A DNA stretch of 64,000 nt from Nitrobacter sp. 62-23 (lineage in GTDB: Bacteria; Pseudomonadota; Alphaproteobacteria; Rhizobiales; Xanthobacteraceae). Made by a program: the position numbers and the translations under genes. Location: the NCBI RefSeq assembly GCF_001897285.1, contig NZ_MKSM01000064.1:72372-136371 (forward strand), given 5' to 3'. The notes below the pieces were generated by a model. It had not been told where the DNA came from. It saw only the letters and a list, made by a program, of their open reading frames with translations, and made no database searches. Numbering within the stretch: the first letter of the stretch is position 1; the number at the start of each line of letters is the position of its first letter. Positions 52,266 through 63,638 of this stretch are shown piece after piece.

Positions 52266-54269
52266 TTACAGCTCCATGCCGTCGCCGGGGTCCATCGCGA
52301 TCCGCCGCGCCATCAGCCGCATGTCGCGGGTGAGCACGCGGTTCGCGACAACCTCACGCTCGGGCTCCTCGGCATCGGGATCAAACTCGTTGGCAGAAGG
52401 CCTCACCGTATCCGGCGCAATATCCTTATGCCGCTCAAGCCCAGGTTCGCGGCGAAGACCGGAATTGGCGGAATCGTCATCCGGCCTGGCCGCGCTATTC
52501 GTCACGGGCGCAGCTCGCGGCGCGACGGTGTTCTTGCTCGCCGGCGCCAGCGCCGCGACGGGCTTCAACGCTGACCAATCGTCGGGCTTCGGCACCATGC
52601 CGGCTTTCGGGTTCTGCGGGACAGCAAGCAGGCGTTGCTTGAACCGTGCGTCCTCGAAATAGCGCGCCTTCTTGGCGCGGACAGGCGGAATGCCGGCGAC
52701 CATGACGATCTCGTCGTCGGGCGGAAGCTGCATCACCTCGCCTGCGGTGAGCAGCGGCCGCGCCGTCTCGGAGCGCGAGATCATCAGATGCCCGAGCCAG
52801 GGCGCGAGACGATGGCCGGCATAGTTCTGCATGGCGCGCATCTCAGTGGCGGTGCCAAGCGCATCACTTACTCTTTTCGCTGTCCTTTCGTCGTTGGTCG
52901 CGAAGCTGACCCTGACGTGGCAGTTATCGAGGATGGAATTGTTCTGCCCGTAGGCTTTCTCGATCTGGTTCAGCGACTGCGCAATCAAAAATGCCTTGAT
53001 GCCGTAGCCCGCCATGAAGGCGAGCGCTGACTCAAAGAAGTCGAGCCTGCCGAGCGCCGGAAATTCATCGAGCATCAACAACAGACGGTGTTGCCGATCC
53101 TTCGCATGAAGATCCTCGGTCAACCGCCGGCCGATCTGGTTGAGCACGAGGCGCACCAGCGGCTTCGTCCTGCTGATGTCGGAGGGCGGCACGACGAGAT
53201 AGAGCGTTGTGGGTTTCGCGCCCGCCACAATGTCGGCGATGCGCCAGTCGCAACGGGCCGTGACGGCTGCTACGACGGGATCGCGATAGAGACCGAGGAA
53301 CGACATGGCGGTTGAAAGCACGCCAGAGCGCTCATTGTCCGACTTGTTGAGCAGTTCGCGTGCTGCGCTGGCGATGACGGGGTGCGGCCCCTTCTCGCCG
53401 AGATGCGGCGTGGTCATCATAGCGGACAGGGTCGATTCGATCGGCCGCCCTGGATCGGACAGAAAGGCCGCGACGCCGGCGAGCGTTTTGTCTGTCTCGG
53501 CATAGAGGACATGGAGGATCGCACCGACCAGCAGCGAATGGGACGTCTTCTCCCAATGATTGCGCTTCTCCAACGAGCCTTCCGGATCGACCAGCACCTC
53601 GGCGACGTTCTGAACGTCGCGGACTTCCCACTCGCCTTTGCGCACCTCGAGCAGCGGATTGTAGGCGGCCGAGTTCGCATTGGTCGGATCGAACAGCAGC
53701 ACGCGACCGAAGCGCGCGCGAAAGCCCGCGGTCAGCTCCCAGTTCTCTCCCTTGATGTCATGAACAATCGACGCGCCGGGCCAGCTGAGTAGCGTCGGCA
53801 CCACCAAGCCGACGCCTTTGCCGGAACGTGTCGGCGCGAAGCACAGCACATGCTCCGCGCCGTCGTGTCTCAGATAGTTGCGGCCGAGGCGGCCAAGAAC
53901 AACTCCATCGTCACCGAGAAGGCCCGCGGATTTGATCTCATGCGGATCGGCCCAACGGGCTGAGCCGAAGGTGCGCACATCCTTGGCTTCGCGCGCCCGG
54001 TAGATCGACATGAGGATGGCGACGGCGATCGCGACGAGGCCGCCCGAAGCGGCAATCCCGGCGCCCTCCAGAAAGATGTGCGGCGCGTAGGCGTCGTAGA
54101 AGAACCACCACCAGAAGAAGGCGGGCGGCGGATAGACCGCCAATCCGGCCAGCGAAAACCAGGGCGAGCCGAGCTGCGCCTGAAAGCCGAGCCGCCACGC
54201 GATCCACTGCGTCGCGATCCAGACCGCGAGCAGCACGATCGCGAACACGACGACGATCTGTTTCCACAT
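52266..54269 (-). CDS. traG: TraG, type IV coupling protein (VirD4 family)
   Basis: 667 residues from the ATG at 54269. N-terminal membrane segments (about 5-22, 38-60, 72-89), then Walker A APTRSGKG (145-152) and Walker B LLLMLDEFPALG, with RxxR-like ARWADP and the C-terminal variable tail. It recruits the relaxase-DNA complex to the Trb channel. Promoter motif upstream at 54371-54404. Confidence 0.95.
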   Translation of the reverse strand: MWKQIVVVFAIVLLAVWIATQWIAWRLGFQAQLGSPWFSLAGLAVYPPPAFFWWWFFYDAYAPHIFLEGAGIAASGGLVAIAVAILMSIYRAREAKDVRTFGSARWADPHEIKSAGLLGDDGVVLGRLGRNYLRHDGAEHVLCFAPTRSGKGVGLVVPTLLSWPGASIVHDIKGENWELTAGFRARFGRVLLFDPTNANSAAYNPLLEVRKGEWEVRDVQNVAEVLVDPEGSLEKRNHWEKTSHSLLVGAILHVLYAETDKTLAGVAAFLSDPGRPIESTLSAMMTTPHLGEKGPHPVIASAARELLNKSDNERSGVLSTAMSFLGLYRDPVVAAVTARCDWRIADIVAGAKPTTLYLVVPPSDISRTKPLVRLVLNQIGRRLTEDLHAKDRQHRLLLMLDEFPALGRLDFFESALAFMAGYGIKAFLIAQSLNQIEKAYGQNNSILDNCHVRVSFATNDERTAKRVSDALGTATEMRAMQNYAGHRLAPWLGHLMISRSETARPLLTAGEVMQLPPDDEIVMVAGIPPVRAKKARYFEDARFKQRLLAVPQNPKAGMVPKPDDWSALKPVAALAPASKNTVAPRAAPVTNSAARPDDDSANSGLRREPGLERHKDIAPDTVRPSANEFDPDAEEPEREVVANRVLTRDMRLMARRIAMDPGDGMEL

Positions 54270-54362
54270 GACGCGGCTGGCGGACACAGCGAGCAAACCT
54301 CCCCGCGCGTTTCAATCCTCCGAAGAAGAGCCAGGAATGTGGAGGTTTCAACTGCGCAGGTG

Positions 54363-54752
54363 TCAGTCATCGTAGAGCAGCGTAGGCGATCGAAAAAATA
54401 CTTGCGCGCTGCGGTATTTGAAATTGCTACGCAACAACTTCGGCCGCTTCGACCGATCGGACGTAAAACTCTCTTCTCCGTCGGGCTCGATCATTCCGAG
54501 CACTTGGCGCGAGCGCACGGAGCATCGCGGTCCGCCGTTGAGCAGCTTGAGCAAGCGACGGAGGTCGAGCGGTGCGATTTCTACTCCCGGAATCGGGTGC
54601 GCCGGGCCCTCGGCACCGGTTTCGTACCCCTCGTGTAGCTTGCGGTTTATCTGCACCGCCGCATCGCGTGCCTCGCCCTCGGTATCGAAGAACTCGTAAT
54701 CGTCGTCACCGAACCAGATCGCGTAGAATGCCGTCGTGAGAGTTTCGGGCAT
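54363..54752 (-). CDS. Hypothetical protein of the tra region
   Basis: 129 residues from the ATG at 54752 with GGAGGATATGAA-type upstream signal. It begins MPETLTTAFYAIWFGDDDYEFF and is acidic. No family recognised. Its 3' end overlaps the CGTAG promoter motif of traG, so part of the motif is also coding sequence (QVFFRSPTLLYDD). Located between traG and vapC. Confidence 0.6.
   Translation of the reverse strand: MPETLTTAFYAIWFGDDDYEFFDTEGEARDAAVQINRKLHEGYETGAEGPAHPIPGVEIAPLDLRRLLKLLNGGPRCSVRSRQVLGMIEPDGEESFTSDRSKRPKLLRSNFKYRSAQVFFRSPTLLYDD
54371..54404 (-). promoter_or_regulatory. CGTAG-repeat promoter motif upstream of traG
   Basis: CGTAG at 54371 and 54381 (10 bases apart), then after 4 bases TCGAAAAAATACTTG (54390-54404). 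The spacing is identical to the trbB motif at 28784-28817. Between AAATAC and GTATTT on the minus strand there is also an inverted repeat. It lies about 100 bases upstream of the traG start. Confidence 0.55.
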
Positions 54753-54848
54753 TTCATATCCTCCATTAGTGCTCGGAGGATGATGGGCAAAGCGCGCCGA
54801 CATGCACCCCGTCATATCTGACAGGTCATTTCGGCGGCGCGCAGCGTC

Positions 54849-55286
54849 CTAGGCCGGCGGCAGTTGCTCCAAGGGATTGAGGTGCGGCACGCCGAGCGGC
54901 GCGAAATGGCGCTCGTTGGCGGTCAGGACGGTGAAGCCGCGCGCGGTCGCCGTGGCGGCAATCGCGATGTCTTCGAAGCCGGGATCATGTGACCGCGCAC
55001 GATCGAGGATGGCGCCGGCATGGCGAGCATCCTCAATGCCGAACGCCAAGATACGGCCGGCGTAGAAGTGCTCGACAGCCGCGAGCCACCTGCGGAGGCG
55101 CTCGGCCTTCGTCGTCGCGCCGATGCGAATGGCGCGGGCAATGCCGGCCTCGATCTCGGCGATGGTCACGGTCGAGATGTAGAGCTGATCGCCATGCTCG
55201 CGCACCCAGGCGGCGAAGGCGTCCGGTCCGACCTGCCGCTTGGCCGGGGCATCGGCCGAGACGATGTTGGTGTCGAGCAGATACAA
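54849..55286 (-). CDS. vapC: PIN-domain toxin, VapC family
   Basis: 145 residues from a TTG at 55286 (no ATG available upstream). PIN ribonuclease with the acidic triad D5 (YLLDTN), E44 (TIAEIEAGI) and D106 (EDIAIAATA). VapC toxins cleave tRNA or rRNA. The antitoxin gene ends 2 bases upstream. The pair lies inside the conjugation operon, where it may stabilise the element. Confidence 0.9.
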   Translation of the reverse strand: MYLLDTNIVSADAPAKRQVGPDAFAAWVREHGDQLYISTVTIAEIEAGIARAIRIGATTKAERLRRWLAAVEHFYAGRILAFGIEDARHAGAILDRARSHDPGFEDIAIAATATARGFTVLTANERHFAPLGVPHLNPLEQLPPA

Positions 55287-55287
55287 G

Positions 55288-55539
55288 TCAGAGGCCGGTA
55301 TCGCTCAACGCGCGCGCGGGCTTGCGGCGCCGCTCGGGAATGTCAGCAGGCTCGCCGGGGAACGCGAGCAGCAAGTCGGCGAAGCTCGGCACCTTGGAGA
55401 CGCGCTCCCATTCCTCGAACGACACAAGCACCGCTTCCTTACGGCCGTGCCGGGTGATGACGGTCGGCTCACCTGCCACGGCGCGATCGACCACGGCCGA
55501 CAGAGTCGCCTTGGCGTCCTTGAGCTGGATTTCCTTCAT
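55288..55539 (-). CDS. Phd/YefM-type antitoxin
   Basis: 83 residues from the ATG at 55539 (MKEIQLKDAKATLSAVVDRA). N-terminal Phd fold, with GEPTVITRHGRKEAVLVSFEEWE, then a flexible toxin-binding tail. Directly upstream of the PIN toxin, forming a VapBC-like module of the Phd-PIN arrangement. It should autoregulate the pair. Confidence 0.88.
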   Translation of the reverse strand: MKEIQLKDAKATLSAVVDRAVAGEPTVITRHGRKEAVLVSFEEWERVSKVPSFADLLLAFPGEPADIPERRRKPARALSDTGL

Positions 55540-55625
55540 GGCGGCATTCCTAATATGACTACCGATAGTCATATATAACTCCTCTCAGCGGAGGGCAAGC
55601 CCGGCGACCCGTTGCGCACCGGGCG

Positions 55626-57362
55626 TCATAACCCCAGCCCCCGCTTGCGGCCGAACGACCAGTCGACGCCACCGTCGGCGCGTGCCACCCCCGAGATGTG
55701 CTGCCCGATGTGCTTGTCGATCGACGGGGTCCAGGGCACGAGCTTGAAGCCCAGGCCATCGTCGATCATGGCGAAGCGGCCGGACGCCAGCGCGAAGCGC
55801 CGGCTGTAAATGCCGATGACAAACTCCCCGGCGGCAGATTTCTGGAACGGCATGCCCGTCTCGGCCGCGAGCTTGTCGCCGAGGGCGTCCAGCTCGCGTT
55901 GCCGGAGTGTGCCGATGAGATTTCGGCTGAACACGAGGCGCTCGTTCTCACGCTGTGCAAGCCCTTCTTGAATCAGGTGCCCCGCGCGGGCCTCCATGGC
56001 CTGCTTCACCTCCAGGCCGAAGCCGCCGCCGAGATCGACGGGATCGCGGGCCACGAGCTGGCGATCGAGCCAGGTCGCACCATTCGCCGTGGTCTGGGCT
56101 TCAATCGACAGATCGGAGCGTATCGCCAACGCCACGCGCCGCTCGCCGCGTGCATCCTCGAAGGATCGCAATTCGACGATCGAGCCCGGCGCACTGTCGC
56201 TGGCCGAGTCGATGTCCGGCAGCTTGATGTGGTGCGTGCGGCCATCGATGCCGTCCACGACGGCATAAGCCGTTCCCCACAGTTCGTTGTCGAGGCCGCG
56301 TTCGACCAGCCGGCCGATGATCGGGGAGCCATGCGCCTCGCCTGCCAAGACATAGTCGGCCGTGCCACGTGCGATGCCTTGTTCGTTGAGCGCGCGGTGC
56401 ATGCGCTTGATGATGTCGTTGCGCTGGCCAAGTTCGCGCAGGTTGGATTCCGCCTTTTTGGTGATGACCCACTGGCCAGGGCCGATAGTCTCGGCGAGGC
56501 CGAGGTGTTCCAGGTGGCGCAATCGTCCGACCTTCTGCGTCAGGTATTCGTCGGGCTGGCGGTCCGGTAACGGCGCCACGTCAATCACGCCATGTTCGTT
56601 GGCGTCGCGGATAAGCTGTCGGTCGAGCTGCGTCCAGCGCTCGACCTCGACCTGCCGCTCCAGCGCGCGGCTGATGTCGAGATCGGAGCGCGGACCGAGT
56701 TCCTGCGTAATGAGATCCTGCGCACGATCACGCATCCCGCTCTTGATGTAGTCGCGGTCGATCACGAGGTCGCGGCCATCATCGGCGCGACCGCGCACGA
56801 TGACATGGACGTGGGGGTTGTCCGTGTTCCAGTGATCGACGGCGATCCACTCGAGTTTTGTGCCGAGGTCCTTTTCAGCTTGGGTCATCAGTTCGCGCGT
56901 GAACCGCTTCAGGTCTTCCATGTCGGTCGCGTCCTCGGGGGACACGATGAAGCGGAAGTGGTGACGGTCATCCTTGCAACGCTCGGAGAACTCCTTGGCG
57001 TCCGCGTCGTCGGTCCCGGAACCGAACATGCGCGCCTTCTCGCCATCGCGCGTGACGCCATCGCGGCGGAGGTAGTTGAGGTGACGGGAGAGCGGACCGC
57101 GCTGACCCTTGTTGCGGACCACGAGCGCCTTGACGGTGCAGAAGCGTGTGCGGCTGGTGATGAGGCGATTGGCGCGGATGCTGGCCACACGGCCGCGGGC
57201 GAAGTGAGGTCCACGGCTAGAGGTGATCTTGCCGGAGCGCGAGATGCAACCACCAGCCTTCTGTGCGGCGGCGAGCGCCTGAGCGACGAAGGGCAAGGCG
57301 CGCTGCGCCCTCGATGAGCGGATGCGACCTGGGCGGACGCGGAAATCATCATCGCGTTTCAT
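55626..57362 (-). CDS. Relaxase, VirD2-like with DUF3363 domain
   Basis: 578 residues. The relaxase domain has Y97 in SRHLNYLRRDGV, FRFIVSPEDA (137-146) and the metal-binding H177, H184, H186 in WNTDNPHVHVIV. The C-terminal two thirds are the DUF3363 domain (GIARGTADYVLAGEAHGSPI, ALDRQLVA-type repeats). It nicks at oriT and pilots the strand through TraG and Trb. The length is normal for the family. The candidate oriT lies directly upstream. Confidence 0.93.
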   Translation of the reverse strand: MKRDDDFRVRPGRIRSSRAQRALPFVAQALAAAQKAGGCISRSGKITSSRGPHFARGRVASIRANRLITSRTRFCTVKALVVRNKGQRGPLSRHLNYLRRDGVTRDGEKARMFGSGTDDADAKEFSERCKDDRHHFRFIVSPEDATDMEDLKRFTRELMTQAEKDLGTKLEWIAVDHWNTDNPHVHVIVRGRADDGRDLVIDRDYIKSGMRDRAQDLITQELGPRSDLDISRALERQVEVERWTQLDRQLIRDANEHGVIDVAPLPDRQPDEYLTQKVGRLRHLEHLGLAETIGPGQWVITKKAESNLRELGQRNDIIKRMHRALNEQGIARGTADYVLAGEAHGSPIIGRLVERGLDNELWGTAYAVVDGIDGRTHHIKLPDIDSASDSAPGSIVELRSFEDARGERRVALAIRSDLSIEAQTTANGATWLDRQLVARDPVDLGGGFGLEVKQAMEARAGHLIQEGLAQRENERLVFSRNLIGTLRQRELDALGDKLAAETGMPFQKSAAGEFVIGIYSRRFALASGRFAMIDDGLGFKLVPWTPSIDKHIGQHISGVARADGGVDWSFGRKRGLGL

Positions 57363-57600
57363 GGCTGTGTTCGCGACGTGCGATATACGCTGAAATCATT
57401 CGCGAAATGGGAGACGGGCACATCGCAACGACGATCCGCGATGTGCAGGAAATCGGAAAAAGCGGAAACAAAACAACCGACCGTCCAAGCCGCGATGTGC
57501 GGCTTTTTATCTTGCCTTCGCTCGGTCGTTGCCAGGGAGCACTCACGGCTCCCTGCATATTCTACGATTGCGCACGCCGCGAAGCGTGGAAACACGATAC
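57363..57600. other. Candidate oriT region upstream of the relaxase gene
   Basis: 238 bases between the relaxase and transglycosylase genes, non-coding. It contains a perfect 7-base-pair stem AAGCCGC (57487-57493) / GCGGCTT (57499-57505) with a 5-base loop, and 3 bases further TATCTTG (57508-57514) followed by C, which fits the P-type nick consensus YATCYTG/Y. A second perfect stem CAGGGAGC-ACTCACG-GCTCCCTG follows at 57533-57555. The layout of a hairpin beside a nick sequence upstream of the relaxase is that of IncP-type oriT. Confidence 0.55.
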
Positions 57601-58359
57601 TCATCGCTGTTCTCCATCTGCGTGTGGTCTTCGCACGAAGATGCCATCGGAGGGCGGCACAAGCGCTGACAGATCGACAATCGCAGGTGCGCTCGAAGGT
57701 CCGCCGGAAGGATAATCGACTGTCGCAGAAGCGTCGTTGTAATGGAATCCGGATCGTCCGGCAAAGAGCGGCGCACGCGACCATGACAGTCGCGATGATG
57801 CGCTTGCGAAACGCATGACAGGGACTTTGCCGTCGATCATGGGGGCGATCTTCGCGACGTAATCGACGGTCTCAGCCGGCAACGCGCGACCGTTCGCCAG
57901 ATGCTTATCGTAGCGCGCTGGCCCAGCGTTATACGCGGCGAGCATCGCGGCGATCGAGCCGTAACGATCGTGCATTTCACGCAGGTAAGCCGCGCCGGCC
58001 AGAATGTTGGCGCGCGGCTGCCAGGGGTCGCTGCCGAGTCCGTAGCGCGCGCGCAGTTCGTTCCAAGTCTCCGGCATGATCTGCATCAGGCCGATCGCGC
58101 CCTTGGGCGAGACCGCGTTCCGGTCGCCAGTGCTCTCGACGGCCATCACCGCGCGTATCCATCGCTCGGGAATGGCGAAGCGCCCGGCCGCCTCGGTGAC
58201 GTGCGCGGCCCACGGATCGGATGGTGGAGCGATCGCCTTACGAGGTGGAGGTGGATCGGCGTGAACGGGAGGCGTGAGGACGACGATCACGGCACATGCG
58301 GTCAGCATGACCATGATCGACGACAGGATGGTGCAAAGTCCGCCTTTCCGAGGCGCCAT
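57601..58359 (-). CDS. Lytic transglycosylase of the tra region
   Basis: 252 residues from the ATG at 58359. Signal peptide (TILSSIMVMLTACAVIVV, to about VHA), then the transglycosylase fold with catalytic E75 (AVMAVESTGD), GAIGLMQIMPETW and AAMLAAYNAGP. It opens peptidoglycan for the conjugation channel, as VirB1-like proteins do. Confidence 0.92.
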   Translation of the reverse strand: MAPRKGGLCTILSSIMVMLTACAVIVVLTPPVHADPPPPRKAIAPPSDPWAAHVTEAAGRFAIPERWIRAVMAVESTGDRNAVSPKGAIGLMQIMPETWNELRARYGLGSDPWQPRANILAGAAYLREMHDRYGSIAAMLAAYNAGPARYDKHLANGRALPAETVDYVAKIAPMIDGKVPVMRFASASSRLSWSRAPLFAGRSGFHYNDASATVDYPSGGPSSAPAIVDLSALVPPSDGIFVRRPHADGEQR

Positions 58360-58540
58360 CAGCCTGCCATCGTGCTCGCTTCGGTCAAGGACAAGGCTGC
58401 GCCGGCCGCAATGCGGCCGCCCTTGACCTGTGCTGCGCGCGACGGCCGCCTGACAGGCGATCGGGTCGGAGGGATGATCCGCGATCCGATCGATCAGAGG
58501 GATGACGGCAGACAAGAATCGGAGTGGCGCGCGCATCGTC

Positions 58541-58780
58541 TCAACCGTGCCTGTCCGGTTTTCCCGCACGGCTCGTCTTGCCGTTGGCGAGATCGACGAT
58601 GAACCCATTGGCCAGACGCACACCGATCACCACGTCGTCCAATCGGTAGTAGTTGTTGTTGCCTCTGAGGCCATAGCCGGCGTCCTCGACGACACGCACG
58701 TCGAACCATTGATGAGGTGCGGTCTGGCCCCAGTATTTGCTCCGTCGCTTGATGCGCGCTATGAGCTGCTGATCATTCAT
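58541..58780 (-). CDS. Small conserved hypothetical protein
   Basis: 79 residues, MNDQQLIARIKRRSKYWGQT, with RGNNNYYRLDDVVIGVRLANGF. Found beside DUF736 and traF in related elements by pattern of gene order; function unknown. A gap of 181 bases (58360-58540) to the transglycosylase gene holds nothing recognised. Confidence 0.6.
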   Translation of the reverse strand: MNDQQLIARIKRRSKYWGQTAPHQWFDVRVVEDAGYGLRGNNNYYRLDDVVIGVRLANGFIVDLANGKTSRAGKPDRHG

Positions 58781-58819
58781 GTCAGTCTCCGTTTGGGTGA
58801 AAATCGGACAGGAATGGCC

Positions 58820-59149
58820 TCAACTCTTGTCGTCGCGCTTCGATGGCCGGCTCCACATCATGTTCCAGACCTTGGCATCGGCCTCGGACTGAAAGAGCGC
58901 GGCACGTAGCGGCTGCGTGAACGTCGGATCGTCGATGGTGATCGAGAGATAGTCGCCGGCCCTTTCGCCGCTGCGGCTCCAGGCGGCGCCAACCTCGATG
59001 TCTTCGGCCGTGAAGATGCGGTGGTCCGGCGCGTTCTCAGCGTCGGATTTCTCGGCCGGACGGATGGTCAGCTCGACGTCGAGCGCGAGGGTGCGGATGC
59101 GACCGCTGAAGCCGGTCTTGGTCTTCGTGAAAGTGCCAATCTGCGTCAT
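58820..59149 (-). CDS. DUF736 protein
   Basis: 109 residues from the ATG at 59149 (MTQIGTFTKTKTGFSGRIRT). DUF736 proteins are small conserved members of alphaproteobacterial conjugative elements, next to traF; the repeated strands suggest a beta-barrel, and some bind single-stranded DNA. Function unproven. Confidence 0.88.
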   Translation of the reverse strand: MTQIGTFTKTKTGFSGRIRTLALDVELTIRPAEKSDAENAPDHRIFTAEDIEVGAAWSRSGERAGDYLSITIDDPTFTQPLRAALFQSEADAKVWNMMWSRPSKRDDKS

Positions 59150-59184
59150 ACTGATAATCCTTTCTTGGCTTGAGAAGCGAGCCG

Positions 59185-59745
59185 TCACGGCTCGTCGGAC
59201 ACCGGCTCGCGGAGGGATTCCGTGGCCGGATCGGTGCCGTCGGCGGTCCAGACGGGAATGGCGCGACCGACGATGGTGCTGACGGGAAGCGGCCCGAAGT
59301 AGCGGCTGTCGAAGCTGTCGGGGCTGTCCCAATTCATGAAGAAAGCTTCGCCATCATGGAGCGTGCGGCAGCCCTGCCAGTCGGGTAGCGGTCGGCCGCG
59401 CGTATCGCGCGCGAGCGCCTGTCCGTAGATTCCGTCATAGGCAATGATGACGCTGCCGCGCCGGCAGACGGTCGTGCCGCCGAGCGCCAGTACGCGCTTG
59501 ATGAGTGGCAAGCCGCGCGGCAGATAGCGGCGCTCGTCGAGGAAGGACGCCAGCTCGGCGGGCGGCATGACGACGGCGAGATCGGTGACGTCGACATGAT
59601 TGCCGGGCACTATGCGGTAGAGCCCAATCGGCACGCTGGCGGATGCGTTCCAGATGAAGCGGATGTCGGGCCGGCCCCAGGCTGAGGCGACGATCAACGC
59701 CGTACCGGCGAGCATCGACAGGAGCGTTGTGCGGCGCGCAATCAT
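59185..59745 (-). CDS. traF: TraF, signal-peptidase S26-type pilin-processing protease
   Basis: 186 residues from the ATG at 59745. N-terminal membrane anchor (LLSMLAGTALIVASAWG), then S37 (SASVPIGLY) and K83 (LIKRVLALGG), the Ser-Lys dyad of S26 peptidases, and GRPLPDWQGCRTL. TraF matures and cyclises the TrbC pilin. The start overlaps DUF2840 by 4 bases. Confidence 0.92.
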   Translation of the reverse strand: MIARRTTLLSMLAGTALIVASAWGRPDIRFIWNASASVPIGLYRIVPGNHVDVTDLAVVMPPAELASFLDERRYLPRGLPLIKRVLALGGTTVCRRGSVIIAYDGIYGQALARDTRGRPLPDWQGCRTLHDGEAFFMNWDSPDSFDSRYFGPLPVSTIVGRAIPVWTADGTDPATESLREPVSDEP

Positions 59746-60236
59746 CGCAGCACCTCGCGGCGGCGCAGCCAAGCGCGATGCTGCTCGGTCGAATAGACGC
59801 GGAACGGCTCGTTGACACTGATGCGATGGTTGAGATGCCGCCAGTGCTCGGGCGCGACGTCGGCGGCGTCGATGCCGAGGGATTCGATCGCATCGACCGC
59901 GGCAAGCACACGCTCGACTTTCGGCCAGCCGCTGATCCGCAACAAAATCTCGCCGCCGGGGCGCACGAAGGGCAGTGTCTGATACGGCTCGCCAACTCCA
60001 ACAGATCGAACGATGTCGATCCGGGAAATGATCGTGCCGTATTCGTTGGCGGCCCAGCGGACGAAGGCAAAGACGCTGCAAGGTGCGAAGCTGACGATGC
60101 GCCGATGGCGGTCGAGACGGTGTTCGTCGACGATCCGGCCAAAGCGAATGCGGTGCTCGATGCGCTTCTCGCGCCAGGTCAATTCGACCAGCGTGTGGTC
60201 GGCCGGTTGACCGATCGCGCGTAGCCCCGCCGTCAT
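59742..60236 (-). CDS. DUF2840 protein
   Basis: 164 residues from the ATG at 60236 (MTAGLRAIGQPADHTLVELTW). DUF2840 genes precede traF in these elements. Alpha/beta, no motif known. Overlaps the methyltransferase relic and traF by 4 bases each. Confidence 0.85.
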   Translation of the reverse strand: MTAGLRAIGQPADHTLVELTWREKRIEHRIRFGRIVDEHRLDRHRRIVSFAPCSVFAFVRWAANEYGTIISRIDIVRSVGVGEPYQTLPFVRPGGEILLRISGWPKVERVLAAVDAIESLGIDAADVAPEHWRHLNHRISVNEPFRVYSTEQHRAWLRRREVLR

Positions 60237-60600
60237 GGCTGCGCTCCTTCGGCGAATGGCAGCACCGATGCGATGCGCACCCGCGCAAGCTCGGCCATGC
60301 CGGCGTCGATCCCGCAGCCGAGATAGCGGCGACCGGAGAGCCGGCAGGCCTCGCCGGCGGTACCCGATCCGGCGAACCAGTCGCCGACCAGGCCACTTTG
60401 CGGGCAACTCGTGCGGATCAGAATCTCGATCAGGCTGGAGGGCTTCTCGGTCGGAGGGATCGCCATGCCGTGGCAATTACTCGCGTAGATCTCCGACGTC
60501 TTCCGACCGCCCGACGCTCGGCGCGCGCTGATGCGGTGCGGTCGTCCACAATGCCGCGACTTGCCGGGTCGCGTTAGCAAGAGTCCGAAGGACTCTGAGT
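60233..60600 (-). pseudogene. Adenine-specific DNA methyltransferase C-terminal fragment
   Basis: The minus-strand frame ending at 60233 reads SGGRKTSEIYASNCHGMAIPPTEKP, then VGDWFAGSGTAGEACRLSGRRYLGCGIDAG and ELARVRIA, the last third of a DNA methyltransferase (FAGSGT SAM motif). There is no N-terminal target or NPPY motif; the frame continues upstream into the iterons without homology. An ATG at 60466 could start a 77-residue protein. Relic or domain gene. Confidence 0.6.
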
Positions 60601-60660
60601 TAGGAGAGTTAGAGGGGGACGAATCCGCTTTATCGCGCCAGATGGTTACGGGGCGCGCGC

Positions 60661-60724
60661 GTTCCCAATAGTACGGGACTCGCGTTCCCGAAAGTACGGG
60701 TGTCAGCGTTCCCAATAGTACGGG
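60661..60724. repeat. Three 17-base iterons beside repA
   Basis: GTTCCCAATAGTACGGG (60661-60677), GTTCCCGAAAGTACGGG (60684-60700) and GTTCCCAATAGTACGGG (60708-60724), spaced 23 and 24 bases start to start. Each is partly palindromic. They lie 36 bases past the end of the replication-initiator gene (60760), as iterons do at plasmid origins. An A+T-rich or palindromic segment (GAGTCCGAAGGACTC at 60581-60595) is near by. Candidate origin of replication. Confidence 0.7.
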
Positions 60725-60759
60725 TCCATCAACACCTTTTGCAGCGGGGCAAGACATGC

Positions 60760-61623
60760 TCATCGCACGCCCCCCCGCCGCCGACGCGGCGTGACCACGC
60801 AATCGGAATCCGTCGGTCGGAAAATCAGGCGCTGCCGTTCATCGGGATCGTCGATCAATGCCAGGTGGTAGCCGGGCAAAGGCTGGCGCTGGACGATGGC
60901 GCGCAGCTCGAAGCGGAAGCGGCGCAGCGGCGACAGGCTGCCGGACTTCAGGTGGAGGTGCGGGAGGTCAAAGCTCCAGCCATGCGTCTGTCGGCCGCCA
61001 TGCTTGCGCACGAGGCGATACAGCCATCGCTCGAGCCCGCCGGTCAGATGGAAATAGGCGCGATCGATGGTGAGGATCAGCGCATCGTCGAGCACACCGG
61101 CATAGAACCAGTCCGGCAGGATCAGTTCGATGCCGAGCGGCCGGCCAGTCGCGTCAAGACGCTCTTTCCACTCGTTGATCCAGGAGAAGCGATGCCGCCG
61201 CCGCTCGGACGGCTGGCGGATCGAGGTGACGACGGTGGTGGACTGCAATCGGTCGAGTGCGGCCTTCAGCCGGTCGTAGCTCAGTCCGGAATCGCTGCGG
61301 CCGACAAAAGTGAGGATCTCATAGGGGGTGGCGGCCATCAGGCGCGACGTCGGCAAGCCGCGGTCGCGCGCATCGACGATCTGGCTGGCGGCCCAGATCA
61401 GGATATCGGCGTCCCAGATCGTGGCCATGCCGTGCTCGGCGGTCGCCTCGACGCGGATCGACACCTCGCCCAAGCGGAAGTCGATCGGCGTCACGCGACG
61501 GATTTTGGCAAGCGAGAAGAACGGCCAAGACATGAGGTCCTGTGCGTCGCGTGCGGCGATGTCGCCGGCGCGCGCCCGGAACAGTTCGAGCTGTTGATCG
61601 TCGTATGGGCGGCGCGCCGACAT
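60760..61623 (-). CDS. repA: Replication initiator protein A (RepA/RPA family)
   Basis: 287 residues, MSARRPYDDQQLELFRARAGD. Matches the replication-initiator RPA family of broad-host plasmids and ICEs, with PFFSLAKIRRVTPIDFRLGE, ILTFVGRSDSGLSYDRLK and GLERWLYRLVRKHG. Expected to bind iterons and open the origin. The start is 9 bases after the excisionase-like gene. Confidence 0.85.
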   Translation of the reverse strand: MSARRPYDDQQLELFRARAGDIAARDAQDLMSWPFFSLAKIRRVTPIDFRLGEVSIRVEATAEHGMATIWDADILIWAASQIVDARDRGLPTSRLMAATPYEILTFVGRSDSGLSYDRLKAALDRLQSTTVVTSIRQPSERRRHRFSWINEWKERLDATGRPLGIELILPDWFYAGVLDDALILTIDRAYFHLTGGLERWLYRLVRKHGGRQTHGWSFDLPHLHLKSGSLSPLRRFRFELRAIVQRQPLPGYHLALIDDPDERQRLIFRPTDSDCVVTPRRRRGGVR

Positions 61624-61631
61624 GGCGACGA

Positions 61632-61874
61632 TCAGCGCGAGGTGCCGGCCGCACGGGCGGCCGCGGATTCAGCCGTGGACTGCCGCACGCAGGCGTCGAT
61701 CCATGCCTCGAGATCGGCGATGGTGTAGACGACGCGACCGCCGAGCTTGTGATAGACCGGCCCCGTGCCGTCGCAGCGATGTTTCTCAAGCGTGCGCGGG
61801 GACAGACCGAGAAGGCGCGCGGCCTCTGGCGTTCGCACGAAACGCGGCCAAGTCTTCTCGGTCTTCTCCGGCAT
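61632..61874 (-). CDS. Excisionase-like AlpA/MerR helix-turn-helix (RdfS candidate)
   Basis: 80 residues, MPEKTEKTWPRFVRTPEAAR. A winged HTH of the excisionase type: VRTPEAARLLGLSPRTLEKHR, then GGRVVYTIADLEAWIDACVR. In ICEMlSym the recombination-directionality factor RdfS is such a protein, placed upstream of the traF region and switched on by FseA. Same strand, 8 bases before repA. Predicted to promote excision. Confidence 0.8.
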   Translation of the reverse strand: MPEKTEKTWPRFVRTPEAARLLGLSPRTLEKHRCDGTGPVYHKLGGRVVYTIADLEAWIDACVRQSTAESAAARAAGTSR

Positions 61875-61992
61875 TGCGGGCCTCCATCGCAGCCGCCGTC
61901 AGAGCGGCGAGTCGGGTGCGACGATGGCGAAAAATCCGCGGTCCGGCGGAGTGACAAAAATCGGGGGCCTCTAAGGAAATGTCCCCCTCCCG

Positions 61993-62613
61993 TCAGCGGC
62001 CGGGTTGCGCGAGCCAGCGCAGATAGCCGCCGTCAATCATATCGCGGCAGGCTTTCAGGATGCGCGCGAGCTGACGCCGTTCGGGCGCGTTCTTCCAGTC
62101 GATGGCGCGCAGAGCCTCGACGTTCCTGTTGAGCAGGATGCCGGCGACGATGCGACGCGACGCACCGGATTCGACGCCGTCCCAGGCGCGCAGCATCAGT
62201 GCTGCGCGATGGAGCTGGAAGGCGGATAGTCGCTGTTCACGCGGCCAACGGCCCGCGCGCTTTCCCTCCAGCCGTCGCACCAAGCGCCCGGCATTGCGAT
62301 GGCGCCACCAGAAATACCGATCGACCGGAAGCAGGATCGCCGCGTGGACCGGCTCCGCGCCGGTGTCGAACCAGAGCTGGTGATCGCCCTCGCCATCTGT
62401 GGCGATGGCGTGCAAACCATTGCCGGTCAATTCACCGAGGATGGGCAGAGACCGCGGATCAGGCAGCGAGGAAGCCGCGAAGCCATCCGGGGCAGCAGTG
62501 ACAATCAGCGTGGCAGGGAAGCATTGCGCCCGCCACACAGGATGGGCCTTCACTGCCGATGCAGAAGGGTCGGCTGGGAAACGCCAACCCCCAACGGCGC
62601 GAGAGTCGGGCAA
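61993..62613 (-). CDS. DUF2285 protein, C-terminal half of an FseA-like activator
   Basis: 206 residues as an independent frame (ATG 62613) containing DUF2285, with WRAQCFPATLIVTA, LWFDTGAEPVHAAIL and RILKACRDMIDGGYLRWLAQ at the end. It overlaps the DUF6499 frame in the +1 frame, and a shift at TTT-CCC (62581-62576) would give RRWGLAF-PADPSASAV, a continuous DUF6499-DUF2285 protein of 262 residues. In ICEMlSym this fused product is FseA. Confidence 0.85.
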   Translation of the reverse strand: MPDSRAVGGWRFPADPSASAVKAHPVWRAQCFPATLIVTAAPDGFAASSLPDPRSLPILGELTGNGLHAIATDGEGDHQLWFDTGAEPVHAAILLPVDRYFWWRHRNAGRLVRRLEGKRAGRWPREQRLSAFQLHRAALMLRAWDGVESGASRRIVAGILLNRNVEALRAIDWKNAPERRQLARILKACRDMIDGGYLRWLAQPGR

Positions 62614-62782
62614 TAGCTTCCGTCCTCGTCGTGCCGCCGGCGGCGATCTCCATCAGCGCTGTTGCGTAGTCCTGCCGGTATTGCCTGTTGCGGCGGAGAA
62701 ACTCGAAACTCACGCCACCACGATCAAGGCGGCCTAACTCATCCTCGAATTGCGATGATCGCCAGTCTTGAAGGGGCTCCAT
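62459..62782 (-). CDS. DUF6499 protein, N-terminal half of an FseA-like activator
   Basis: 107 residues from the ATG at 62782 (MEPLQDWRSSQFEDELGRLD). The DUF6499 domain occupies the first 65 residues and includes FLRRNRQYRQDYATALMEIA. Without a frameshift the frame runs 39 further codons without homology (FCIGSEGPSC) and stops at 62459. The slip site F68 is TTT followed by CCC. Encodes the N-terminal part of the frameshifted excision activator. Confidence 0.85.
   Translation of the reverse strand: MEPLQDWRSSQFEDELGRLDRGGVSFEFLRRNRQYRQDYATALMEIAAGGTTRTEAIARLSRRWGLAFPSRPFCIGSEGPSCVAGAMLPCHADCHCCPGWLRGFLAA
62576..62581 (-). promoter_or_regulatory. Putative +1 ribosomal frameshift site
   Basis: TTT CCC on the minus strand (62581-62576). 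A +1 slip from TTT to TTC moves the ribosome from DUF6499 frame to the DUF2285 frame exactly where the two homologies join. The site lies in a run of proline/phenylalanine codons, similar in kind to known +1 sites. Confidence 0.6.
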
Positions 62783-62929: not shown

Positions 62930-63193
62930 TTATTGCATCCGCGGCTGGAGAAGGTGCCGGTAGCCGTGCTCTGTCATCCAGCGCGCACGCGCCAAGTGAC
63001 TATCGTGCATGTGCTTCGCGCGCTGCGGATCGGCGTCAACGTCGAGGCCGAACACGATCTTGACCACCTCGCGCCAATCGGCGCCCTCCTCGGCCGCGTC
63101 GAGCAGCCGAAGATAGGTGGCGAGATGTGCTTCATCGTAGGCGTTCACCCGATCGGTCAGCGGCGGGCTGTCCTTGAAGGTGGGCTTGCTCAT
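62930..63193 (-). CDS. Small DUF2285-like protein, QseM-type antiactivator candidate
   Basis: 87 residues from the ATG at 63193 (MSKPTFKDSPPLTDRVNAYD). The second half WREVVKIVFGLD and HLARARWMTEHGYRHLL has the helix-turn-helix pattern of DUF2285, and resembles the end of the FseA-like protein (RDMIDGGYLRWL). In ICEMlSym the antiactivator QseM is such a DUF2285 protein and binds FseA and TraR. Divergent from the XRE gene 63423, as qseM is from qseC. Confidence 0.7.
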   Translation of the reverse strand: MSKPTFKDSPPLTDRVNAYDEAHLATYLRLLDAAEEGADWREVVKIVFGLDVDADPQRAKHMHDSHLARARWMTEHGYRHLLQPRMQ

Positions 63194-63373
63194 CAACGTG
63201 TTTCCAAACCCCGTCGATTTAGAATCAAAATAGATTATGCGCGCCGACCGCAACAGGTTTTGAACAACATTCCCGTTGCGGACTTGGAATAGCGCCATGC
63301 CGTCGGCGCGATAGCAGGACCGGACATCACAATCATCCTCCTGTCGGAACCGATCTCCCTTCTATATCGAATA

Positions 63374-63422: not shown

Positions 63423-63638
63423 ATGGACCTTAAGGAGGTCATGGCGATCAACATGCGTCGGCTGCGCTATGACAAGAAACTGACGCAAGAGGAGCTGGCT
63501 GCGCGCTCGGGCTTGAGCATGCGCTATGTCGGCTCGATCGAGCGCGGCGCTGTGTCGGCGAGCGTCAGTGTCCTGGGCAAGGTCGCGGAGGCGCTCGACG
63601 TCGATCCCTGCGATCTAATCCGGCTGCCGAAGCGCTGA
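63423..63638 (+). CDS. XRE-family repressor, QseC-like
   Basis: 71 residues. Helix-turn-helix: NMRRLRYDKKLTQEELAARSGLSMRYVGSIERG, then SVSVLGKVAEALDVDP. A second ATG at 63441 follows AAGGAGG but with only two bases of spacing, so the start is uncertain. The only plus-strand gene of the right end. Probably represses itself and the divergent antiactivator gene through the palindromes at 63374-63402. Confidence 0.85.
   Translation: MDLKEVMAINMRRLRYDKKLTQEELAARSGLSMRYVGSIERGAVSASVSVLGKVAEALDVDPCDLIRLPKR

Follow-up and report, generated by a model that had tools for sequence, protein, structure and literature searches.

The DNA analysed here, referred to as the window, is a stretch of 64,000 nt from Nitrobacter sp. 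62-23 (GCF_001897285.1, contig NZ_MKSM01000064.1, 72,372-136,371 of the forward strand). It carries an fseA-like gene written in two reading frames, together with putative regulatory partners and the backbone of a conjugative element (Table 1).

Table 1. Features of the two-frame gene and of its neighbourhood, in window coordinates.
Feature	Position	Strand	Basis
fseA-like gene, predicted DUF6499-DUF7012-DUF2285 fusion, 262 aa, one base skipped	61993..62782	-	domains, alignment, RovC profile
0-frame ORF, free DUF6499 product of 107 aa if unshifted	62459..62782	-	PF20109, E 1e-18
+1-frame part, DUF7012 middle and DUF2285 DNA-binding domain	61993..62577	-	domain matches
Predicted shift codon UUU; skipped base C 62578	62579..62581	-	sequence
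GGGGGU, Shine-Dalgarno-like, 5 nt upstream of the shift codon	62587..62592	-	sequence, anti-SD duplex
Codon preceding the shift codon: GCG (Ala) in the window, CGA in 105/184 relatives	62582..62584	-	
QseM-like putative antiactivator, lone DUF2285, 87 aa, net charge -2	62930..63193	-	solved QseM 7UQT, E 1.8e-15
Divergent XRE-type HTH, QseC-like by family and position only	63423..63638	+	HTH_3, E 2.3e-13
RdfS-like excisionase/recombination directionality factor	61632..61874	-	solved RdfS 8DGL, E 5.7e-8; HTH_17
Candidate regulatory block GGGGGACA...TGTCACTCCG, between the fseA stop and rdfS	61947..61987	-	common to near relatives, spacing varies
Replication initiator protein A	60760..61623	-	PF10134, E 9.9e-89
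Conjugation backbone: DUF2840, traF-like S26 peptidase, SLT transglycosylase, DUF736, DUF3363 relaxase, traG-like coupling protein	52266..60476	-	

The 0-frame ORF opens with the ATG at 62782, and the domain found in it, PF20109, is presumably DUF6499. The second ORF, ending at 61993, matched PF22792 (DUF7012, E 2.6e-10) and, at its C-terminal side, PF10074, which we take to be DUF2285 (E 4.9e-22); NCBIfam gave no match for either half. These ORFs and domain matches bear out the original prediction that the two frames stand in the +1 relation. The slip had been placed at TTT-CCC, 62581-62576, and these coordinates are right, with UUU at 62581-62579 followed by the skipped C, while in silico translation through UUU-C-CCA yields the 262-residue fusion that had been proposed. 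The DUF6499 part contains FEFLRRN, corresponding to the LRRN-type motif of the FseA family, and the C-terminal DUF2285, the arrangement of two ORFs in the +1 relation and the conserved shift site are further hallmarks of this family that are present in the gene. Judged by these sequence features, the gene is a well-preserved member of the FseA family, for which the +1 frameshift has been published, and a slip of the ribosome by one base very probably links its two halves into a single activator of excision and transfer.

Upstream of the fseA-like gene, the longer ORF that includes the QseM-like protein (62930-63298) matched PF10074 with an E value of 1.7e-8. The net charge of the QseM-like protein contrasts with that of FseA residues 192-262, the DUF2285 region, which is +7. 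An adjacent lone DUF2285 protein with a negative surface, as belongs to a QseM-FseA module, is thus indicated by the match to 7UQT and by the net charge of the sequence; direct BLASTP comparison of the QseM-like protein with the fusion showed no similarity (E 0.80). Downstream, an rdfS-like gene was found in 146 of 184 related contexts, 179 of which offered more than 400 nt of searchable sequence. The candidate block that follows the fseA stop codon, ahead of rdfS, is possibly a local activator site. An FseA box consists of two inverted hexamers 15-16 bp apart. No clear box of this kind was seen in the window, and across 144 upstream regions a spacing of 16 topped the hexamer repeats in raw counts (288 versus 219-267).

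The wider neighbourhood is that of a conjugative element. About 7 kb past the end of the window there is an integrase match, and a search for the element ends found no tRNA, either within the window or over the 19.8 kb that follow it. In addition, a PIN toxin/Phd antitoxin pair (54849-55572) is located between the relaxase and coupling protein genes, and an ORF resembling an N6_N4 DNA methylase (60233-60802) between the DUF2840 and replication initiator genes. The same genome contains two further fseA-like loci: on contig C26 (549-2244), the DUF6499 and C parts are split by a transposase ORF (1249-2028, + strand), and on contig C96 there is a further copy of the +1 type.

The distribution of this gene type was examined in other genomes. 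Among the matches listed, DUF6499 was present in 107 of 296 genomes of the window's family, 58 of 199 of a second family, 17 of 289 at the level of the class, 43 of 398 at that of the phylum and 10 of 229 in another class. Examination of 243 records gave 236 pairs of a DUF6499 and a C part at 235 places, the window and one listed locus (L001) being the same place; 6 further DUF6499 matches had no C part within reach. Among the matches listed, 204 pairs stood in the +1 relation, 31 in the same frame (30 of them as one open ORF) and 1 at another offset (L049), and because these loci are score-ranked matches weighted to Rhizobiales, the ratio of 204:31 is no estimate of frequency. The FseA family and its PRF have been described before, with about 61% PRF among 4709 homologues according to the available text of PMC10359603. 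The expectation that relatives would include no single-frame version did not hold, as 30 loci carry one, all of them distant. In a FastTree tree of 184 +1 rows and 29 single-frame rows (one single-frame locus, L072, was dropped), 7 changes between the two kinds are required; the starred sets closest to the window, of 7, 11 and 14 rows, consist entirely of +1 rows. A neighbouring QseM-like gene within 1.4 kb upstream was found in 130 of 184 PRF contexts versus 0 of 30 single-frame loci; these are raw counts, and on the tree only 4 independent starred pairs are available, without significance, so that an association of PRF with an adjacent qseM is unproven. Furthermore, a Bradyrhizobium plasmid carries separate annotation entries for DUF6499 and DUF2285 in the same order, an example in which automatic annotation has again split these genes.

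Homology runs through the junction. No gap opens at the junction when eight single-frame homologues are aligned to the window fusion together with 10 other +1 fusions, as in RWGLAFPADP of the window versus RWGLYAFADP of a single-frame protein. The predicted joining of RRWGLAF to PADPSASAV is therefore matched by natural single-frame homologues aligned across that very point. A family profile built from 19 rows reached the solved RovC structure 6XZ5 (E 1.7e-21), its best stretch (profile 23-115) crossing the junction and a second matching stretch lying in DUF2285. In a single-sequence PDB search, the window fusion alone did not retrieve RovC, the sole match being uridine phosphorylase at E 0.15.

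The slip site was compared across 184 distinct contexts, obtained from the 204 +1 loci by removing 5 without the W-x3-Phe pattern (L013, L014, L015, L022 and L057) and 15 of the remaining 199 as duplicate 300-nt contexts; L049 and L182 were left out. The shift codon was UUU in 184/184 contexts of this set, which was filtered for TTT or TTC. The next base was C in 172 and U in 12, and the in-frame codon after UUU was CCC in 83, CGC in 64, CGU in 11 and another in 26. Of the TTT CCC that relatives were predicted to conserve, TTT is thus found throughout, while conservation of CCC is ruled out by its presence in just 83/184 contexts; the conserved site is UUU_Y rather than UUU-CCC. With the pattern filter removed, 201 of the 203 +1 loci had UUU_Y at the slip, all but L015, with UUU one codon later, and L057, with UGU.

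Codon choice before and at the slip departs strongly from that elsewhere in these genes: UUU was used in 184/184 cases versus 0.270, GGG in 129/183 versus 0.112, UUG in 99/164 versus 0.104 and, among arginine codons, CGA in 105/118 versus 0.095. In 188 column-residue tests these were the four strongest synonymous-codon biases, CGA being the strongest of all, with binomial p values that ignore relatedness. On the tree, GGG changed at least 30 times and CGA at least 16 times, and both are still preferred, so that the bias does not reflect one frozen ancestor. The leucine codon upstream of the slip took a form beginning with U in 110 of 164 cases. The protein sequence accounts for some of the GGGG core, since the Trp-Gly pair from which it derives is kept in single-frame homologues too, which leaves only the fifth G and the U after it as specific to the context; GGG was used in 5 of the 20 single-frame loci that have a WG[LVI]-type motif. 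Over the 15 nt upstream of UUU, the anti-Shine-Dalgarno duplex reached -9.6 kcal/mol in the window and averaged -8.41 kcal/mol over the 184 contexts, versus -6.04 kcal/mol upon synonymous resampling. Downstream of the slip, a stabilising RNA structure was sought in the 184 contexts without a sign of one (mean z +0.54), and a stimulatory structure there was rejected. The 0-frame tail was somewhat shorter than in codon-shuffled controls (median 19 versus 25 codons, p 0.0013 ignoring relatedness), a weak effect.

The window has GCG in place of CGA, the commonest pre-slip codon. For other residues at this position, codons ending in A were not favoured (4 of 49, with 7.5 expected), which suggests that the CGA codon is selected rather than the base. 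A +1 cassette of the FseA type, distinct from that of RF2, might accordingly be imagined with three parts, namely GGGGGU, a weakly decoded, inosine-read CGA in the E site and UUU_Y, although this reading is less likely than not. The FseA frameshift was reportedly published by Ramsay in 2015. The main text of PMC10359603 contains neither CGA nor UUU. CGA in the E site could be an unreported third part, its novelty being uncertain. The conserved site, comprising UUU_Y, the G-rich upstream element and the favoured CGA, is open to base-by-base testing.

These comparisons also bear on other explanations of the two frames. It is quite improbable that DUF6499 and DUF2285 are translated from separate starts, without a frameshift, and work together as two proteins. 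For Azorhizobium, the text of PMC9601964 argues for two homologous genes with their own starts and no PRF. Counted from the first base of the shift codon, the C frame of the window offers TTG 32 nt upstream and GTG 28 and 43 nt downstream. A start-type codon lies between the slip and C-domain position 15 in 113 of 184 contexts, but it is missing there in 71, which makes independent starts unlikely in general, and in 23 it is missing throughout the C frame. Homology, moreover, extends to the slip on both sides, and two separate proteins would give no role to the invariance of UUU_Y or to the synonymous bias. Still less credence attaches to a broken gene or an assembly error, with a single-base indel in a once single-frame gene. 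Indels are common, and the genome does hold an fseA-like copy interrupted by a transposase ORF; yet 204 of the 236 pairs among the matches listed share this offset and its location, all 21 loci from L023 to L043 with a DUF6499 part are of the +1 type, and the domains on both sides are intact, for which reasons this explanation is strongly disfavoured.

A subtler alternative, judged unlikely, follows the Ty3 element of yeast: the ribosome would slip at the preceding codon, GCG or CGA, while this occupies the P site, and tRNA-Phe would enter the A site by pairing with the out-of-frame UUC. The resulting protein is identical and hence uninformative between the two models, and the GGGGGU element would lie 2 nt from the slipping codon. 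A spacing of 2 nt to the slipping codon is the geometry of RF2. For Ty3, poor inosine pairing at the P-site codon has been discussed in the text of PMC5009743. An earlier slip would, however, leave the first U of UUU free, yet this base was U in 184/184 contexts filtered for TTT or TTC and in 201/203 unfiltered loci, and its invariance is evidence against a slip one codon earlier.

A slip on UUU itself is therefore retained, and the best reading of the domains, gene order, junction alignment and nucleotide constraint at the slip is the FseA-like activator made by +1 frameshifting that was originally proposed. With high probability, the locus holds a functional fseA-type gene at the regulatory head of a conjugative element, where the +1 slip would produce a fused activator of rdfS and the transfer genes under restraint by the QseM-like protein. 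The majority of ribosomes would read DUF6499 and stop at 62459. In a minority, tRNA-Phe on UUU in the P site would move +1 onto UUC, with CCA to follow, so that DUF6499 is continued by the middle domain and DUF2285; the Shine-Dalgarno-like GGGGGU upstream may aid the slip-prone UUU_Y tetranucleotide. By analogy with work on R7A, from which the making of the fused product, its DNA target, excision and antiactivation are carried over, the 262-aa protein would dimerise, bind beside the rdfS promoter and turn on rdfS together with the downstream transfer genes, and the QseM-like protein encoded upstream would restrain it. More speculatively, free DUF6499, the frequent unshifted product, could soak up QseM and sharpen the switch. 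In FseA, the DUF6499 part is described as binding QseM as strongly as the whole protein (PMC10359603, available text).

Control by quorum sensing appears to differ. The genome gave 0 Autoind_bind matches for a TraR-type receptor in a search that detected its positive control, and quorum-sensing control of the R7A type is therefore unsupported here; the trigger of the fseA-like gene is probably not TraR as in R7A. One match resembling an AHL synthase was observed on contig C112 (775-1296) of the same genome, in which no Autoind_bind receptor was found. The locus confirms that the predicted frameshifted activator, its putative antiactivator and its excisionase target also move as a group on conjugative elements beyond the symbiosis islands, in this case in a genome with no detected TraR.

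Several known systems can be set beside the window gene. Single-frame FseA homologues and RovC (6XZ5) have the domain order of the window fusion and align with it through the junction, but unlike the window gene they consist of one open frame without a PRF site. In prfB (release factor 2), the Shine-Dalgarno-like element is spaced one codon closer than the GGGGGU of the window, which accordingly lies one codon further upstream. The slip sequence also differs, being UUU_Y (UUU_CCC) in the window versus CUU_U in prfB, and the A site holds a sense codon rather than a stop, which places the site outside the RF2 type. What both share is a +1 slip, predicted in the window, with a Shine-Dalgarno-like GGGGG upstream (PMC5009743, available text, for prfB). 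The closest likeness is to ICEMlSym R7A, in which FseA (msi172-msi171) shares DUF6499 and DUF2285 in two ORFs with the +1 relation, the frameshift in the window being predicted. The likeness extends to the qseM/qseC-like neighbours and to the nearby rdfS, traF, transglycosylase and relaxase genes (PMC10359603; PMC8627217, as far as their available text goes). In contrast to R7A, fseA lies directly upstream of rdfS in the window, and the genome has no detected TraR-type receptor, unlike the quorum-sensing setting of fseA in R7A. The window also has rep and DUF2840 genes, which the ICESyms lack in the available text of PMC8627217; according to the same text, ICEs that do not belong to the ICESym group have a Rep initiator and DUF2840 in the interval from rdfS to traF. 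The +1 frameshift mechanism and its spread are already published, and the window gene is a new, well-preserved example.
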